NCBI GenBank assembly: GCA_023384105.1
Contig: JAHDXR010000002.1
Span: 186,001 to 250,000, forward strand
Direction: 5' to 3'
Length of the DNA: 64,000 bases
Source: Hyphomonadaceae bacterium
GTDB lineage: Bacteria; Pseudomonadota; Alphaproteobacteria; Caulobacterales; Aquidulcibacteraceae
Shown here: piece by piece, positions 6,254 through 12,416 of the stretch
Position numbering within the stretch: the stretch's first letter is position 1
How the letters are laid out: each line of letters begins with the position of its first letter
Notes under the pieces: model-generated
Databases searched by the model: none
Told to the model about the DNA's origin: nothing
The model's input: only the letters and a program-made list of their open reading frames with translations
Position numbers and translations under genes: made by a program

Positions 6254-6802
6254 TTAGCGTGGGGCGCGTTTGGCCAGGATGCGCTGCAGCGTGCGGCGGT
6301 GCATGTTGAGGCGGCGCGCGGTTTCCGAGACGTTGTGGCCGCACAGTTCGTAGACGCGCTGGATGTGCTCCCAGCGGATGCGGTCGGCGCTCATCGGATT
6401 GTCCGGCGGCTCGGGCGTTGCGTCCGGTGGCGCGAGCAGGGCCTTGACGATGTCTTCGGGATCGGCCGGCTTGGCGAGATAGTCGATCGCGCCCGCCTTC
6501 ACGGCGGCGACGGCGGTGGCGATGGCGCCGTAGCCGGTCAGCATCACGACGCGGCAATCGTCACGGTGGCGGTTGAGGGCTTCGACCACCGAAAGGCCGG
6601 ATCCGTCCTCCAGGCGCAGGTCGAGCACGGCGTAGGCCGGCGGCGACCTGGCGGCGATGTCGCTGGCTTCGGCGACGCTGCCGACGGCGGTGACTTCAAA
6701 ACCGCGGCCTTCGAGGGCGCGGGCGAGACGGGTGCGGAACGCAGCGTCGTCGTCGAGGATCAGCAGCGATTTGTCGCCGTCGGGAGGGGCTTCAGTGGCC
6801 AT
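6254..6802 (-). CDS. regA: Redox response regulator RegA/PrrA/ActR
   Basis: 182 residues from ATG 6802. A TTG at 6820 preceded by GAGG would add six residues and cannot be excluded. The receiver domain (about 10-125) has the acidic patch LDDDAAF, the phosphoacceptor Asp61 (VLDLRLEDG) and LAKPAD with the conserved Lys. The C-terminal Fis-type helix-turn-helix (NVSETARRLNMHRRTLQRIL) is the nearly invariant recognition region of RegA. Family members control aerobic/anaerobic energy genes (oxidases, carbon or nitrogen fixation, photosynthesis). It follows regB on the same strand, 50 bases downstream, so the kinase and regulator are likely co-transcribed. Confidence 0.95.
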   Translation of the reverse strand: MATEAPPDGDKSLLILDDDAAFRTRLARALEGRGFEVTAVGSVAEASDIAARSPPAYAVLDLRLEDGSGLSVVEALNRHRDDCRVVMLTGYGAIATAVAAVKAGAIDYLAKPADPEDIVKALLAPPDATPEPPDNPMSADRIRWEHIQRVYELCGHNVSETARRLNMHRRTLQRILAKRAPR

Positions 6803-6852
6803 GGTATGGGAATGCTCCAAGTTGCCTCGTATTTAATGATTTTCTCGGCAAA

Positions 6853-8160
6853 TCAAAGCGCAGGCGCCTCAATTGATGTGCGCTTCCAGACGCTTTTCAC
6901 CACCGCGCCGCGATTTGGCGGGCGGCGGTTGCGGACGTCGAGCCTGGCGCCGGTGCGCTCCAGCAGCGTTTTCGAGATGAAGAATCCGAGCCCTAGCCCG
7001 CCGGCCATGCCCTCGCGGTCGCGCTCGGTCAGGTAAGGCTCGCCCAGCCGGTTCAAAATTGCAGGGGAGAATCCCGGTCCGTCATCGCGCACGGTGACGC
7101 TGATCGTCTCGCCGTCCCAGACGGCCTCGATGTCGACGCGGGTCCTGGCGAAGCCGACCGCGTTCTCGACGATGCCGCCGAGGGCGTGGACGATCTCGGG
7201 CATGCGGCGGACCTCGAGCGGACCCTCGCCGCGGGCCTCGATATGGATGTCGGCGCCGAGGCCTTCGTGCGGGGCGGCGATCTCCTCCAGCAGCGCCCGG
7301 ATCGGCGCGCGCGCGTGCATCACGTCGCCCTGTTCGCGCATGGCGGAGAGCTGGCCCAGGATGGCGCGGCAGCGTTCGCTCTGCGTGACCAGGAGTTGCA
7401 GATCCTCGGCGCGCGGATCGTCGGGGCCGGCTTCGCGCGCCATTTCCTTGGCGGCGAGATGGATGGTGGCGAGCGGAGTGCCGAGTTCGTGCGCGGCGGC
7501 GGCGGCGAGGCCGCCGAGCGCGGAAAGCGTCTGTTCTCGCGCCAAAACCGCCTGCACGGCGGCGAGCGCGATGTTGAGACGCTCCTCTTCGGCGGCGACG
7601 CGCCAAGCGTAGACGCTGGTGAAGGCGAGCCCCACCAGCACCGCGGCGGCGAGACCCATCTGGTAAAGCGCCGGCAGTTCGAACGAGCCGCCCTCGGGCC
7701 AGGGCAGCGGCAGACGCCACACCGAAATCACGCCGACGCAGACGAAGGTGAGCGCCGCGAGCACGGCGGTGACGGCCGGACGCAGCACCGTGGCGGACAC
7801 CGCAACCGGCGCGATGAACAGAAACACGAACGGGTTCTGCAGGCCCCCGGTCAGCGCCAGCAGCACGGCGAGCTGCACCGCGTCATAGGCGAGCAGCGCC
7901 GCCGCTTCCCACTCCTTGGCGAGTTCCTGCGAGCGGCGCGCGGCGAGCCCAAGATTGAGCACGACCGACACCGCCACCGCCACCAGCGCCCAGTCGAGCG
8001 GAAACTCGACGTCAAGCCCGTAGCGCACGAACAGCACCGCCGCCGTCTGCCCGATGATGGCGAGCCAGCGCAGCATGATGAGCGTGCGCAGGCGGACCCG
8101 GCTCTGGGCGGTCCAGAAGCTGGGCACGGGGGCGGGCTCGCGGGTCTCGGACACGGCCAT
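6853..8160 (-). CDS. regB: Redox sensor histidine kinase RegB/PrrB/ActS
   Basis: 435 residues from ATG 8160. An N-terminal membrane domain of about six helices carries the ubiquinone-sensing motif GGLQNPF (about residues 104-110). The H-box His224 is in AAHELGTPLATIH. Cys264 (ERCRAIL) lies at the place of the redox-active Cys265 of Rhodobacter capsulatus RegB. The HATPase domain shows VENAVGFA, DDGPGFS and GLGLGFFISK. The kinase phosphorylates RegA when the quinone pool or the Cys is reduced. In Rhodobacter regB and regA are divergent with senC; here they are tandem, and a SCO1/SenC gene lies 6.4 kb away. Confidence 0.95.
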   Translation of the reverse strand: MAVSETREPAPVPSFWTAQSRVRLRTLIMLRWLAIIGQTAAVLFVRYGLDVEFPLDWALVAVAVSVVLNLGLAARRSQELAKEWEAAALLAYDAVQLAVLLALTGGLQNPFVFLFIAPVAVSATVLRPAVTAVLAALTFVCVGVISVWRLPLPWPEGGSFELPALYQMGLAAAVLVGLAFTSVYAWRVAAEEERLNIALAAVQAVLAREQTLSALGGLAAAAAHELGTPLATIHLAAKEMAREAGPDDPRAEDLQLLVTQSERCRAILGQLSAMREQGDVMHARAPIRALLEEIAAPHEGLGADIHIEARGEGPLEVRRMPEIVHALGGIVENAVGFARTRVDIEAVWDGETISVTVRDDGPGFSPAILNRLGEPYLTERDREGMAGGLGLGFFISKTLLERTGARLDVRNRRPPNRGAVVKSVWKRTSIEAPAL

Positions 8161-8238: not shown

Positions 8239-8253
8239 TGCGAGTCAATCGCA
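8239..8253. promoter_or_regulatory. Candidate Fur-family box
   Basis: TGCGAGTCAATCGCA is a TGCGA-N5-TCGCA dyad and fits the TGC-N9-GCA form of alphaproteobacterial Fur-type boxes. It lies 37 bases before the receptor start, in the 129-bp gap between the divergent regB and the receptor operon. No B12-riboswitch-like structure fits in this short leader. Confidence 0.55.
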
Positions 8254-8289
8254 ATAAGAGCGGCCGGCAACCACGATGGAGCGGGTGAG

Positions 8290-10503
8290 ATGGGACGCAT
8301 GCGGGGACGGTCGGCGCTGGTGCTGGCGCTCGGGCTGGCGGGGGCCGGCGCGGCGGCGGCTGAAGAGGCCGAGGAGCGGCTTTACGCCGAGAACGAGATC
8401 ACGGTGACGGCGACGCGCAGCGCGCGCGACGCGTTCGAGGTGCCGACCGTCGTGACGGTGATCGGCCGGGACCAGATCGAGGACAACCTCGTCACCGACA
8501 TCAAGGACCTGATCCGCTTCGAGCCGGGCGTTTCGGTGCCGACTTCGCCGTCGCGCTTCAGTGCGGCGCTGAGTGCGACCGGCCGCGACGGCAATTCCGG
8601 CTTCACCATCCGCGGCATGGGCGGCAATCGCGTGCTGCTGCAGGTCGACGGCATCCGCGTGCCGGACGGCTTCAGCTTCGGTCCGAACTCGTTCGGGCGC
8701 GGCGACTATGTCGATCTCGACCTGCTGCAATCGGTGGAGATCGTGCGCGGGCCCGCCTCGGCGCTCTACGGCAGCGACGGGCTCGCCGGCGTGGTGAGCT
8801 TCATCACCCGCGATCCGAGCGACTTCCTCGCCGAGGATGAGGCGTTCGGCGCGCGGCTGCGCGCGTCCTACGCCAGCGTCGACGACAGCTGGTCCGAGAA
8901 CCTTACCGCGGCGGGGCGGCTGAACGACCAATGGTCGGCGCTGATCGCCTACACGCGCCGCGACGGACACGAGACGGAAAACCAGGGCGAGAACGACTCG
9001 ACGACGAACTGGGCGGCGCGGACCGTGCCGAACCCGCAGGACGTCGAGTCGAACGCCGTGCTCGGCCGCATCGTGTTCGAGCCGAGCGACGCGCACCGCT
9101 TGCGCCTCACCGGCGACTGGGGCGACCGCACGATCGTCACCGAGCCGCTGACCGGACGCAGCGCGACCGTGCTCGATCTCGACGGCCTGGACGAAAGCGA
9201 GCGCTCGCGGCTCACGCTCGACTACACGTTCGAGAACGGCGGCGGCTTCATCGACAACGCATTCGTCGCCGTCTATGCGCAGACCAGCGGGCTGACGCAG
9301 TTCACCTACGAAGACCGCACGCCCGCCGTCGACCGGACGCGGCGCACCACCTACGACACCGACGTCTGGGGGCTGACGGCGCAGGCCGAAAGCGTGTTCG
9401 AGGGCGTCGTCGGGCATCGCTTCGTGTACGGCGTCGATCATTCGGTGACGACGCAGGGCGCGATCCGCGACGGCACGACGCCGACGCCGCCGGCGGTGTT
9501 CCCGGACCGGCCGTTCCCGGAGACGGAGTACGAGCGCACCGGCGTCTTCATCGTGGACGAGATTTCGCTGCTGGACGGCGCGCTGACGCTGTTCCCGGCC
9601 GTGCGCTACGATTCCTACGAACTGACGCCGCACGCGGACCCGCTCTATCTCGGCACGATGTCGGGCCAGAGCGACGACCGTATCTCGCCGAAGTTCGGCG
9701 TTGTGGCGTGGCCGACCGAGCATTTCGGCGCCTTCTTCAACTACGCCTCGGGCTTCAAGGCGCCGGCGCCGAACGAAGTGAACAATTTCTTCGAGAACCT
9801 GACCTACGGCAGCATCGGCCAGGCCTACACCTCGATCCCGAACCCGGACCTGGCGCCGGAGACCAGCGACGGTTTCGAGGCGGGCGTGCGCGGCCGCAAC
9901 TGGCGCGCGTTCGGCGCCGGCTGGGACTGGAGCGCCTCGGCGTTCGCGTCGTTCTACGAGGACTTCATCACCCAGGATATCGTCGCCGGCTCGGGCTCCA
10001 CCGCCGATCCGTTCGTCTATCAGTACGTGAACCTGAACGAGGTCGAGATCAGCGGCGCCGAGGCCCGCATCCGCGGCTACTGGGAGAACGGCTTCGCGCT
10101 GAACGTCGCGCTTTCATACGCCGAGGGCGAGCAGACCACGCCCGCCGGCACGGGGCCGCTGGAGACGGTCGATCCGTTCAAGGCGGTGCTCGGCCTCTCC
10201 TACGACGCGCCCGGCGGCGCCTGGGGCGGCCAGGCGATCGTGACCTACGCCGCGCGCAAGGACAGCGACGACGTAGCCTCGCCGCTGACAGCGTTCCGGC
10301 CGGATTCGTTTGCGATCCTCGATCTCACCGCATACTGGAACGTCACCGACGCCGCGACCGTGCGCGTCGGCGTCTTCAACGCGACCGACGAGACATATTG
10401 GTGGTGGAGCGATGCGCGCGGTCTCAGCGCGGCGTCGGCGGTGCTCGATGCGTACACGCAGCCGGGCCGGAATTTCTCGGCTTCAATCTCGTATCGTTTC
10501 TAG
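8290..10503 (+). CDS. TonB-dependent receptor, heme/hemoglobin type
   Basis: 737 residues from ATG 8290 after GGAGCGGG; the open frame extends far upstream but that part overlaps regB. A signal peptide (about 1-23) precedes a TonB-box-like ENEITVTATR and a plug domain with FTIRGMGGNRVLLQVDGIR and VEIVRGPASALYGSDGLAG. The barrel carries FKAP (489-492) and NPDL (518-521), the FRAP and NPNL boxes of heme/hemoglobin receptors, but no His between them; Tyr residues sit there instead. The protein ends in Phe (SYRF), as outer-membrane barrels do. It is the first gene of a three-gene operon behind a Fur-like box, so iron-regulated uptake of heme or a related metallo-tetrapyrrole is likely. Confidence 0.88.
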   Translation: MGRMRGRSALVLALGLAGAGAAAAEEAEERLYAENEITVTATRSARDAFEVPTVVTVIGRDQIEDNLVTDIKDLIRFEPGVSVPTSPSRFSAALSATGRDGNSGFTIRGMGGNRVLLQVDGIRVPDGFSFGPNSFGRGDYVDLDLLQSVEIVRGPASALYGSDGLAGVVSFITRDPSDFLAEDEAFGARLRASYASVDDSWSENLTAAGRLNDQWSALIAYTRRDGHETENQGENDSTTNWAARTVPNPQDVESNAVLGRIVFEPSDAHRLRLTGDWGDRTIVTEPLTGRSATVLDLDGLDESERSRLTLDYTFENGGGFIDNAFVAVYAQTSGLTQFTYEDRTPAVDRTRRTTYDTDVWGLTAQAESVFEGVVGHRFVYGVDHSVTTQGAIRDGTTPTPPAVFPDRPFPETEYERTGVFIVDEISLLDGALTLFPAVRYDSYELTPHADPLYLGTMSGQSDDRISPKFGVVAWPTEHFGAFFNYASGFKAPAPNEVNNFFENLTYGSIGQAYTSIPNPDLAPETSDGFEAGVRGRNWRAFGAGWDWSASAFASFYEDFITQDIVAGSGSTADPFVYQYVNLNEVEISGAEARIRGYWENGFALNVALSYAEGEQTTPAGTGPLETVDPFKAVLGLSYDAPGGAWGGQAIVTYAARKDSDDVASPLTAFRPDSFAILDLTAYWNVTDAATVRVGVFNATDETYWWWSDARGLSAASAVLDAYTQPGRNFSASISYRF

Positions 10504-10515
10504 GAGGGTTGTCTC

Positions 10516-11427
10516 ATGATCACACGCCGCGCCACGCTGGTTGCGCTTGCGGGGTCGAGTCTGCTCGCCGGAGTCGCCGCGCCTGCCTTGGCGCAGACGC
10601 GCGATTTCGGCGTGCTGGTGATGGCGCACGGGGGCGGCGCGGTCTGGAACGGCGAGGTCGAGGCCATGCTCCAGCCGCTGCGCGCAGACTATCCGCTGGA
10701 GATCGCGTTCGGCATGGCGGACGCGGTGGGCCTGCAGCGGGCGGTGAGCCGGCTGGAGGCGCAAGGGGCGCGCCGCATCGCGGTGGTGCGCCTGTTCATC
10801 AGCGGCGAAAGCTGGTTCGAGCGCACCGAGCAGATCCTGGGCGTCGTCCCCGGCGCGCCGCCGCGCCCGCCGGCCGATCCGCACGCCGGCCACGGCGCGC
10901 ACGCGGGCCACAGCATGGAGTTCTGGCGCATCAGCACCGACGCGCGGTTCGCGGTGAGCACGGAAGGCCTGGCGGAAGCGCCGGAGATGGACGCCGTGCT
11001 GCTCGACCGCGCGCGGGCGCTGAGCCGGGAGCCGGCGCGCGAAAGCGTCCTGGTCCTCGCGCACGGGCCCGAGGACGACGCCGAGAACGCACGCTGGCTG
11101 GCGCTGATCGGCGCGCGCGCCCAGGGCCTGCGGCAATTGCCGTTCCGCCGCGTCGAGGTGGAGACGCTGCGCGAAGACTGGCCGGAGAAGCGCGCGGCTT
11201 CGGAAGCGCGCATCCGCGCCTTCATCGAGACCGCGCGCAGCGACGGCGGACGCGCCATCGTCATCCCCTATCGCGTGCAGGGCTTCGGTCCCTATGCGCG
11301 CGTGCTGGAGGGTTTGGACTACGTGTCGGACGGGCGCGGGCTGTTGCCGAGCGCCGAGGTCGAACGCTGGGTGCGCCGCCAGGTCGAGCAGTTGCGCGCC
11401 GGCGCGTTCCGCTCGCCTGTCGCATGA
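10516..11427 (+). CDS. Exported CbiX/sirohydrochlorin-chelatase-like protein
   Basis: 303 residues; AGGAGGG overlaps the receptor stop codon, with ATG at 10516. The first 27 residues form an export signal with a twin Arg (ITRRATLVALAGSS...ALAQ), so the product should be periplasmic. Two chelatase-like halves follow, with His38 in VLVMAHGGGAVWN and His183 in VLVLAHGPEDD. Cytoplasmic class II chelatases use such His to insert Co or Fe into tetrapyrroles. A loop at 121-134 (DPHAGHGAHAGHSM) has four His spaced by three and looks metal-binding. Export of a chelatase fold next to a heme-type receptor suggests metal removal or metalloporphyrin handling rather than biosynthesis; that is inference. 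Confidence 0.82.
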   Translation: MITRRATLVALAGSSLLAGVAAPALAQTRDFGVLVMAHGGGAVWNGEVEAMLQPLRADYPLEIAFGMADAVGLQRAVSRLEAQGARRIAVVRLFISGESWFERTEQILGVVPGAPPRPPADPHAGHGAHAGHSMEFWRISTDARFAVSTEGLAEAPEMDAVLLDRARALSREPARESVLVLAHGPEDDAENARWLALIGARAQGLRQLPFRRVEVETLREDWPEKRAASEARIRAFIETARSDGGRAIVIPYRVQGFGPYARVLEGLDYVSDGRGLLPSAEVERWVRRQVEQLRAGAFRSPVA

Positions 11428-11444
11428 GAACTGGGAGAGGTCAG

Positions 11445-12416
11445 ATGAGCATGTCTTTGACGCGTCGCGGCTCGATCATGGCGCTGGCGGGCGCCGGCGC
11501 CGCGCTGGCGAGCCCGGCGCCGGCGCAGACGCGCGCCGGCCAGATCGAGCGCGACCGCGCCGCGATCCTGGCGATGGCGGGCGATTATCACGTCCGCTTC
11601 AATTTCGACGAGACGGTGCCGTTCGTCGCCGACTACACGCCGCTCGAACCGAAGACGAGCGGCGGCTACGAAAGCGTGCGCGCGATCGCCGACGAGGGCG
11701 AGTTCATTTCATTGCAGCACCTGCTGGTGGCCGAGCACGAAGGCGAGACCTTCGTGATCAAGCACTGGCGCCAGGACTGGCGATACCAGCCGCGCAACGT
11801 GCTCGCGTACGAGCGGCGCAATACCTGGGCGCTGCGCAGCGTCGGCGGCGCCGAGCGGCGCGGGGCCTGGTCGCAGACGGTGTGGCAGACCGACGATTCG
11901 CCGCGCTACGGCGGCGTCGGCCGCTGGGACTACGCCAACGGGCGCACGATCTGGACCAGCGGGCCGACGGCGCGGCCGCTGGCGCGGCGCGACGCCATCC
12001 GCAATCCGCCCTACGAGCGCTATCTCAGCATCAACCGCCACGCGCTGACGCCGACCGGCTGGGTGCACGAGCAGGACAACGAGAAGATCGGCGTGCGCGA
12101 CGGCCGGCCGGTGGCGATCGTGCACGAGGACGGCGTCAACACGTACAACCATTTCAGCGACTATCCGGTCGCGGCGGCGGATGCGTATTGGCGCGACACG
12201 GCCGAATACTGGGCGGGCGTGCGCCGGGCGTGGGACGAGGCGGTCGCGCGCGGGCGCGGGGTCTATGTCGAGGAGGAGGCGCAGAACGGCGCCGTCACCG
12301 GGCCTGCGCTGATGGGCCTCGCCATGCAGATTCACGACGGCGAGATCGAGACCGCGCCGGCGCTCGCCGAAGCGCGCGCGACGATCGCGCAGGCGACCGG
12401 CGCAGGCGGCGTCTGA
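11445..12416 (+). CDS. DUF6607-family exported protein
   Basis: 323 residues from ATG 11445 after GGGAGAGG, 17 bases after the chelatase-like gene. The signal peptide has a twin Arg (LTRRGSIMALAGAG...PAQ), like the preceding gene, so Tat export is possible. The mature protein is rich in Trp, Tyr and His: YHVRFNFDETVPF, FVIKHWRQDWRYQPRNVLAYERRNTW, WVHEQDNEKIGVRDG and HFSDYPV. I recognise it as DUF6607, which in my recollection often follows TonB receptors with a CbiX-like gene; its function is unknown. The many conserved aromatics and His would suit heme or metal binding, which is inference. Confidence 0.75.
   Translation: MSMSLTRRGSIMALAGAGAALASPAPAQTRAGQIERDRAAILAMAGDYHVRFNFDETVPFVADYTPLEPKTSGGYESVRAIADEGEFISLQHLLVAEHEGETFVIKHWRQDWRYQPRNVLAYERRNTWALRSVGGAERRGAWSQTVWQTDDSPRYGGVGRWDYANGRTIWTSGPTARPLARRDAIRNPPYERYLSINRHALTPTGWVHEQDNEKIGVRDGRPVAIVHEDGVNTYNHFSDYPVAAADAYWRDTAEYWAGVRRAWDEAVARGRGVYVEEEAQNGAVTGPALMGLAMQIHDGEIETAPALAEARATIAQATGAGGV

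Follow-up and report, generated by a model that had tools for sequence, protein, structure and literature searches.

What would a protein with a chelatase fold do outside the cytoplasm? The question is raised by three genes in a 64,000-nucleotide stretch of the genome of a Hyphomonadaceae bacterium (contig JAHDXR010000002.1, positions 186,001 to 250,000), which we analysed as a whole and call the window. A TonB-dependent receptor, a CbiX-like protein with an export leader and a DUF6607 protein are encoded head to tail on the plus strand, separated by 12 and 17 nucleotides, behind a Fur-like box. An earlier sequence-only reading, made without database searches, had proposed this arrangement, and the three genes proved to be real and contiguous (gene calls by a home-made score). 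We think it likely that they form a haem-acquisition operon made of a haemophore, a receptor and an inserted exported chelatase-fold protein. The features are as follows.

8239..8253, plus strand: Fur-like 7-1-7 palindrome TGCGAGTCAATCGCA, 36 nucleotides 5' of the receptor start
8290..10503, plus strand: TonB-dependent outer-membrane receptor of the haem/haemoglobin subfamily, without the usual haem-ligating His (Pfam Plug and barrel; TIGR01786, TIGR01785; PhuR 8the)
10516..11427, plus strand: exported protein with a predicted bilobal class II chelatase fold (CbiX/SirB-like), His38 and His183 invariant (profile, fold, alignment)
10882..10911, plus strand: His loop of the CbiX-like protein, residues 123-132 (HAGHGAHAGH), in relatives His-rich, Met-containing or neither
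11445..12416, plus strand: DUF6607 protein with an export leader, by sequence and fold homology a RhuH-type haemophore, its His107 corresponding to the haem-ligating His96 of RhuH

A haem receptor and a RhuH-type haemophore

The DUF6607 protein scores 210 bits against a Pfam cut-off of 27 and carries an export leader, as had been stated from the sequence. It is homologous over residues 30-282 of 323 to RhuH of Riemerella anatipestifer (phmmer E value 1.9e-49), and a predicted model built from 44 sequences (mean predicted local distance difference test, pLDDT, 91.5) matches PDB entry 8xjc, which is RhuH, with a Foldseek E value of 1.2e-25 and a template modelling (TM) score of 0.88 by target length. 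RhuH is a haemophore published in 2025, with homologues mainly in Weeksellaceae and Flavobacteriaceae and 7.69 percent identity to HmuY; it binds haem with a dissociation constant of 3.44e-11 M and extracts it from haemoglobin, His96 being the haem ligand and Arg143, Tyr144, Arg170, Arg183 and Gln198 lying at the propionates in a modelled complex (PMC11967795). In the alignment His96 falls on His107 of the DUF6607 protein, and Arg143, Tyr144 and Arg170 on Arg154, Tyr155 and Arg182, each invariant (44/44), while Gln198 corresponds to Gln210, conserved in 42/44; four of the five modelled propionate contacts are thus identical in the window protein. Because DUF6607 is homologous to RhuH and keeps the haem ligand and four of the five other contacts, the receptor and the DUF6607 protein are, as judged by homology, a haem receptor-haemophore pair.

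The likeness to RhuH lies in the predicted fold, the haem-ligating His and four of the five other modelled contacts. The window protein differs in being alphaproteobacterial, in belonging to a family that mostly stands beside a TonB receptor gene, and in being accompanied here by a chelatase-fold protein as well. The sequence and fold homology to RhuH also rejects the description of DUF6607 as a family of unknown function; no paper under that name was met in the part of the literature searched, so that the link to RhuH had not been made under it there. Caulobacter HutA was rejected as a direct model: DUF4198 and other genes lie near hutA, and no DUF6607 was seen in the available parts of the two reports (PMC3751524, PMC13001220).

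The receptor exceeds the curated cut-offs of TIGR01786 (410.8 against 323.75 bits) and TIGR01785 (387 against 316.85 bits), both Pfam Plug and barrel domains are matched, and its nearest solved chain is the haem receptor PhuR (8the, E value 1.8e-92). As the sequence-only reading had it, the FKAP and NPDL boxes of the haem/haemoglobin type are present without a His between them. The haem-ligating His and Tyr of PhuR, at the chain positions that we assign to them, align with Arg137 and an Asn. A receptor lacking this His was considered as a hallmark of CbiX-containing loci and was ruled out, since an inter-box His occurs in 9/25 receptor rows from such loci (one row, L026, is a different, neighbouring receptor, and that of L048 contains masked bases), four Nitrosomonas receptors among them also having a His in the plug, and in 0/11 rows from DUF6607 loci without CbiX. 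Two other substrates were rejected as well: for cobalt/B12 uptake the receptor reaches only 117.6 of the 599.7 bits of the B12 receptor model, and haemophores accompany CbiX; for copper uptake it reaches 52.7 of the 472.45 bits of TIGR01778.

The Fur-like box is the only site in the window that scores 12/14. The consensus was composed with this site in view, and its rarity in the window therefore proves little; recurrence in relatives is the better evidence. A site scoring at least 11 lies upstream of 43/66 related receptors, as against 112/2000 random 310-base pieces, with receptor starts estimated and a few of the 66 being duplicates (L063 and L102 are one genome). The operon is probably under Fur control. 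Upstream of it and divergent, at 6254-8160 on the minus strand, a sensor histidine kinase is encoded together with a short response regulator whose helix-turn-helix is of the Fis type; we take the two to be possibly a redox pair of the RegBA type.

The exported chelatase-fold protein

Known class II chelatases of the CbiX/SirB type are cytoplasmic, and the window protein differs from them by its export leader, as read from the sequence. The earlier claim of export stands, whereas the twin-Arg signal attached to it applies to few members. The window protein has a twin-Arg (TRR) leader; among 39 unfused relatives a TRR leader occurs in three, a lipobox in 25 by a loose pattern whose matches may in some cases, such as L005 and L006, be due to chance, and 11 are unclassified. 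Export of the family thus looks general, but the twin-Arg leader does not. We retain the argument, already made from the sequence, that an exported chelatase cannot serve tetrapyrrole synthesis in the cytoplasm.

Alone, the window protein scores 17.5 bits for Pfam CbiX, below the cut-off of 22. This model is matched at E values of 0.01 or lower by 38/44 aligned family members, and Pfam CbiK by 1/44. The family profile matches 6m25, deposited as a sirohydrochlorin cobaltochelatase and presumably CfbA, with 6.8e-10. In Foldseek the predicted model (mean pLDDT 92.1) matches SirB (2.3e-7), the periplasmic CbiK of Desulfovibrio (2xvx, 1.3e-6), Salmonella CbiK (4.6e-6) and FetB of Porphyromonas gingivalis (9b86, 2.2e-5), and human ferrochelatase is also listed. 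These matches bear out the chelatase fold recognised earlier: on the predicted model, the protein has the bilobal class II fold of SirB, CbiK, periplasmic CbiK and FetB.

The first His of each lobe, His38 and His183, is invariant (47/47, counted without L037 and L048, which are partial). When the two lobes are aligned with each other these residues coincide, in an alignment of only 27 columns with a probability of 34.5 percent. At the position of the second chelatase His we find Ser99/Trp100 in the N-terminal lobe, according to the 6m25 alignment, and approximately Pro259 in the C-terminal lobe, by counting along the strands of the model. Met67, Arg219 and Asp221 are also invariant, Met67 aligning with a Glu of 6m25 that we assume to help bind the metal. 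Of the HxxHxxHxxH loop described from the sequence, the motif itself was confirmed (HAGHGAHAGH, residues 123-132), but not its conservation: at least two His occur in 38 of 48 sequences and none in 10, several of the latter carrying Met in MxMP-type patterns. A His-rich loop is found at the aligned position of 6m25 as well.

In small class II chelatases two His per subunit surround a shared site, and large ones have the His pair in one lobe, with a Glu replacing one of them in HemH (PMC7689651). The rule of two catalytic His in one lobe does not hold for the CbiX-like family, whose apparent layout of one His per lobe does not fit any of the layouts in the available part of this published scheme.

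Distribution and neighbours of the CbiX-like family

A scan of genome contigs with short peptide patterns, which under-samples distant members, yielded 48 relatives of the CbiX-like protein. They come from Alpha-, Beta- and Gammaproteobacteria, Gemmatimonadota, Planctomycetota, Hydrogenedentota, Armatimonadota, Opitutaceae, Elusimicrobia and others. Two of the 48 contigs end too soon to be assessed. At 29 of the 46 others the cluster on the same strand includes a related TonB receptor: directly upstream in 20, upstream with DUF6607 in between in one (L001), upstream of fused proteins in three, downstream within 313 bases in four (Nitrosomonas) and downstream beyond an HmuY gene in one.

Several neighbourhoods, in which some of the flanking genes were scanned, are informative about the substrate. 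CbiX adjoins DUF6607 at 3/48 loci (L001, L007 and L037). In one Gemmatimonadota locus (L035, 5501-9811) it is followed by HmuY (PF14064, 61.9 bits, cut-off 27) and then by a TonB receptor; in another (L017, 3-2555) the opposite strand carries a HmuY-like gene in the vicinity, and a TonB receptor is present near CbiX. In a marine gammaproteobacterium (L030) the receptor, CbiX and a small open reading frame (ORF) precede genes for HemS (253 bits), for a periplasmic binding protein, for a permease of the FecCD type and for an ATPase that scores best with the haem ATP-binding cassette (ABC) ATPase model (250.1 of 261 bits). A permease and an ATPase lie upstream of CbiX at L031. The receptor of Nitrosomonas locus L040 scores 531 bits for TIGR01785 and has His at both sites, the plug segment and the stretch from FRAP to NPNL. 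Because RhuH-type and HmuY-type haemophores and haem-transport genes sit beside members of one CbiX family, these neighbours point to haem as its likely substrate, in agreement with the metalloporphyrin proposed by the sequence-only reading.

In the betaproteobacterial members of Nitrosomonas type (L040:5098-6843, L042, L043, L044 and L045) an additional CbiX unit is fused at the N-terminus; this unit has another residue instead of the first catalytic His, reading A[AP]DRG and not AHG. A DUF2325 gene precedes the fusion of L040. In six gammaproteobacterial loci CbiX is followed by a small related ORF of 88-107 residues without a Pfam match, possibly a further part of the system (L028:6909-7175, L030:3439-3759, L031:6819-7085, L021 and L027, and on the other strand L026). 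Several loci from Planctomycetota, Hydrogenedentota and Armatimonadota (L022, L024, L029 and others) encode an exported CbiX without a TonB receptor of the window type nearby. From these non-proteobacterial loci, the role of the exported CbiX family may be wider than service to haem receptors.

The sequence-only reading had expected the three genes to be linked in many genomes. We find instead that the unit commonly met is receptor with DUF6607, into which CbiX is inserted only rarely. In a sample of the order, DUF6607 occurs in 127/299 genomes and exported CbiX in at least 4/299; in a sample of the class the figures are 7/289 and at least 2/289, the CbiX counts being lower bounds from a scan that, in most genomes listed, scored only eight first-look candidates. 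A receptor of the window type lies within about 1.5 kb at 29/36 DUF6607 loci (divergent at 23, upstream on the same strand at five, downstream at one), and no such receptor was seen within this flank at the other seven. Seven genomes of the same genus (L092-L098), fetched from 17 others with DUF6607, have the receptor directly followed by DUF6607 and no CbiX, the receptor of L096 being read as two ORFs. Because these relatives have the pair contiguous without CbiX, the CbiX gene of the window genome is, on this comparison of gene order, an insert in a haem receptor-haemophore operon. Co-inheritance of the three genes is ruled out by the genome counts and the same-genus loci. Of the four CbiX-bearing genomes of the order, two, the window genome and L106, have CbiX beside DUF6607. 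The histidine kinase and response regulator pair is kept beside receptor and DUF6607 in the same-genus genomes, where the kinase is 74-84 percent identical to that of the window; the regulator is unmatched in L095.

Possible iron release or haem carriage

We take IhtB and FetB of P. gingivalis to be one protein. IhtB, a CbiK-homologous lipoprotein encoded with the TonB receptor IhtA, was proposed to take iron from haem (PMC10913741), and a review reports that FetB changes porphyrin metals (PMC13402209). For HmuS of Bacteroidota, which belongs with the haem receptor HmuR and the haemophore-like HmuY, a role in freeing haem iron in the periplasm was proposed (PMC13227078). Since IhtA-IhtB/FetB and HmuS have been described, the notion that an exported chelatase may act on haem is not new, with IhtB/FetB, the periplasmic CbiK and HmuS as precedents. 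The earlier statement that no characterised system has this composition cannot be kept, given IhtA-IhtB (PMC10913741) and the RhuH family (PMC11967795).

Each precedent resembles the window locus in part. Like IhtA-IhtB, the window and 29/46 assessable loci combine a TonB receptor gene with an exported chelatase-like gene; IhtB, however, is CbiK-homologous and comes with the transport proteins IhtC-E, whereas the protein found here resembles CbiX/SirB, has its His arranged differently and is partnered by a RhuH-type haemophore. The periplasmic CbiK of Desulfovibrio vulgaris (2xvx) shares the exported bilobal class II chelatase fold but belongs to the CbiK family. HmuS is alike in its proposed periplasmic release of iron alongside a haem receptor and a haemophore-like protein; unlike the window protein, it is a large CobN/ChlH-like protein without similarity to the CbiK or HemH chelatases (PMC13227078). 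The sirohydrochlorin chelatases SirB, CbiX and CfbA share the fold and the first catalytic His, but they are enzymes of tetrapyrrole synthesis whose catalytic His pair lies within one lobe in the large forms and within each subunit in the small ones (PMC7689651), from which the window family differs. In the part of the literature searched, no exported CbiX beside a haem receptor was found, nor did we come across the CbiX-type subfamily, the arrangement of its His, its distribution or its combination with a RhuH-type protein.

We propose that haem is bound outside the cytoplasm by the DUF6607 haemophore, acting together with the TonB-dependent haem receptor, which would take the haem in. The CbiX-like protein would then handle haem in the envelope, holding the metalloporphyrin in a putative cleft between its lobes with one His from each (His38 and His183). 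There is good support for haem handling outside the cytoplasm. In the window genome the protein may help to release iron from haem, the freed iron entering through FeoB. For this genome we favour iron release, by a small margin, over the handing on of intact haem, a close rival, because FeoB is present and PF01126, PF05171 and PF10615, the last of which we take to be tied to haem breakdown, were not found there. In this genome the gene of FeoB lies close to those of a FecCD permease and of a further TonB receptor, a relative of haem receptors scoring below cut-off (L112:4544-12644). The broader proposition, that an exported class II subfamily with one His per lobe at a shared cleft and Met in place of Glu runs in reverse on haem delivered by a haem receptor and a RhuH- or HmuY-type haemophore, freeing iron outside the cytoplasm without haem oxygenase in proteobacteria and other phyla, is a tentative one that we regard as rather unlikely.

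A number of observations weigh against these proposals. The window receptor has no His in the plug segment or between the boxes in a segment comparison, and Arg183 of RhuH is replaced by Ser195 in the DUF6607 protein. The second chelatase His is absent from both lobes of the CbiX-like protein, and Foldseek also lists periplasmic-binding/LacI folds for it, with E values near 1e-3 or better and low TM scores. No related same-strand receptor was found at 17/46 CbiX loci with a profile that detects receptors of the window type only; it missed the 876-residue receptor of L106 shown by Pfam, and the 17 include L016, where a partial receptor is divergent, and L017, where the receptor is on the other strand. 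In the other two CbiX-bearing genomes of the order (L103 and L104) CbiX lies apart from DUF6607 and no receptor was found beside it, and the receptor of L035 fails to reach the haem-model cut-offs (115.4 of 316.85). The seven same-genus genomes with receptor and haemophore and no CbiX indicate by their gene content that CbiX is dispensable for uptake. At L030, HemS and the haem-type transporter suggest that haem can enter intact. Finally, of 14 control genomes only 3, 1 and 1 gave matches to PF01126, PF05171 and PF10615, respectively, and Caulobacter vibrioides gave none; their absence from the window genome is weak evidence for iron release, other haem-degrading families being outside the search.

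Some of these points fit better with a non-catalytic carrier or buffer, moving haem unchanged among the receptor, the haemophore and a permease of the inner membrane, and we regard this as a real possibility, though not the most probable one. The lack of a second chelatase His in both lobes is what such a protein would show, one His per lobe could allow bis-His ligation, and the periplasmic CbiK of Desulfovibrio reportedly binds haem. CbiX sits with importers of intact haem at L030, and the window genome has two FecCD permease genes; both, however, are below the cut-offs of the models tried. The same operon, moreover, already encodes a haem-carrying haemophore, and the invariant Met67, Arg219 and Asp221 are a hint that the site of the CbiX-like protein is more specialised. 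The His/Met loop suggests other roles. The protein might be a periplasmic chaperone or sink for Cu, Zn, Co or Ni, linked to haem receptors indirectly through iron-responsive control: at least two loop His in 38/48 sequences, MxMP-type patterns in several His-less loops and the 17/46 loci without a related receptor in the same-strand cluster would agree with this. We consider it improbable, as the invariant residues lie in the chelatase halves and not in the loop, and RhuH-type and HmuY-type haemophores and haem-transport genes adjoin CbiX.

Slightly less probable still is exchange or insertion of porphyrin metals outside the cytoplasm, as reported for P. gingivalis FetB with Mn-protoporphyrin, and not iron supply. 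The structural similarity to FetB (9b86), the exchange described for it in a review (PMC13402209) and the His/Met loop argue for such a role; against it, only 1/44 members match Pfam CbiK, the family to which IhtB is related (PMC10913741), and the loop lacks His in 10/48 sequences. That the protein is a cytoplasmic sirohydrochlorin chelatase misread as exported, for which its CbiX family match could be cited, is hardly credible in view of the lipobox-like or TRR leaders in 28/39 unfused relatives, the missing second catalytic His and the linkage to receptor and haemophore.

Within a haem-acquisition operon read in this way, DUF6607 gains a function, that of a RhuH-type haemophore, and one that is frequent in an alphaproteobacterial order outside the published main range of RhuH. 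The CbiX-like proteins constitute an exported chelatase-fold family that is repeatedly linked to haem-uptake genes and whose apparent His layout lies outside the published class II scheme. For the release of iron from haem outside the cytoplasm, the CbiX-like protein would be a candidate that is small, soluble and amenable to a clear assay.

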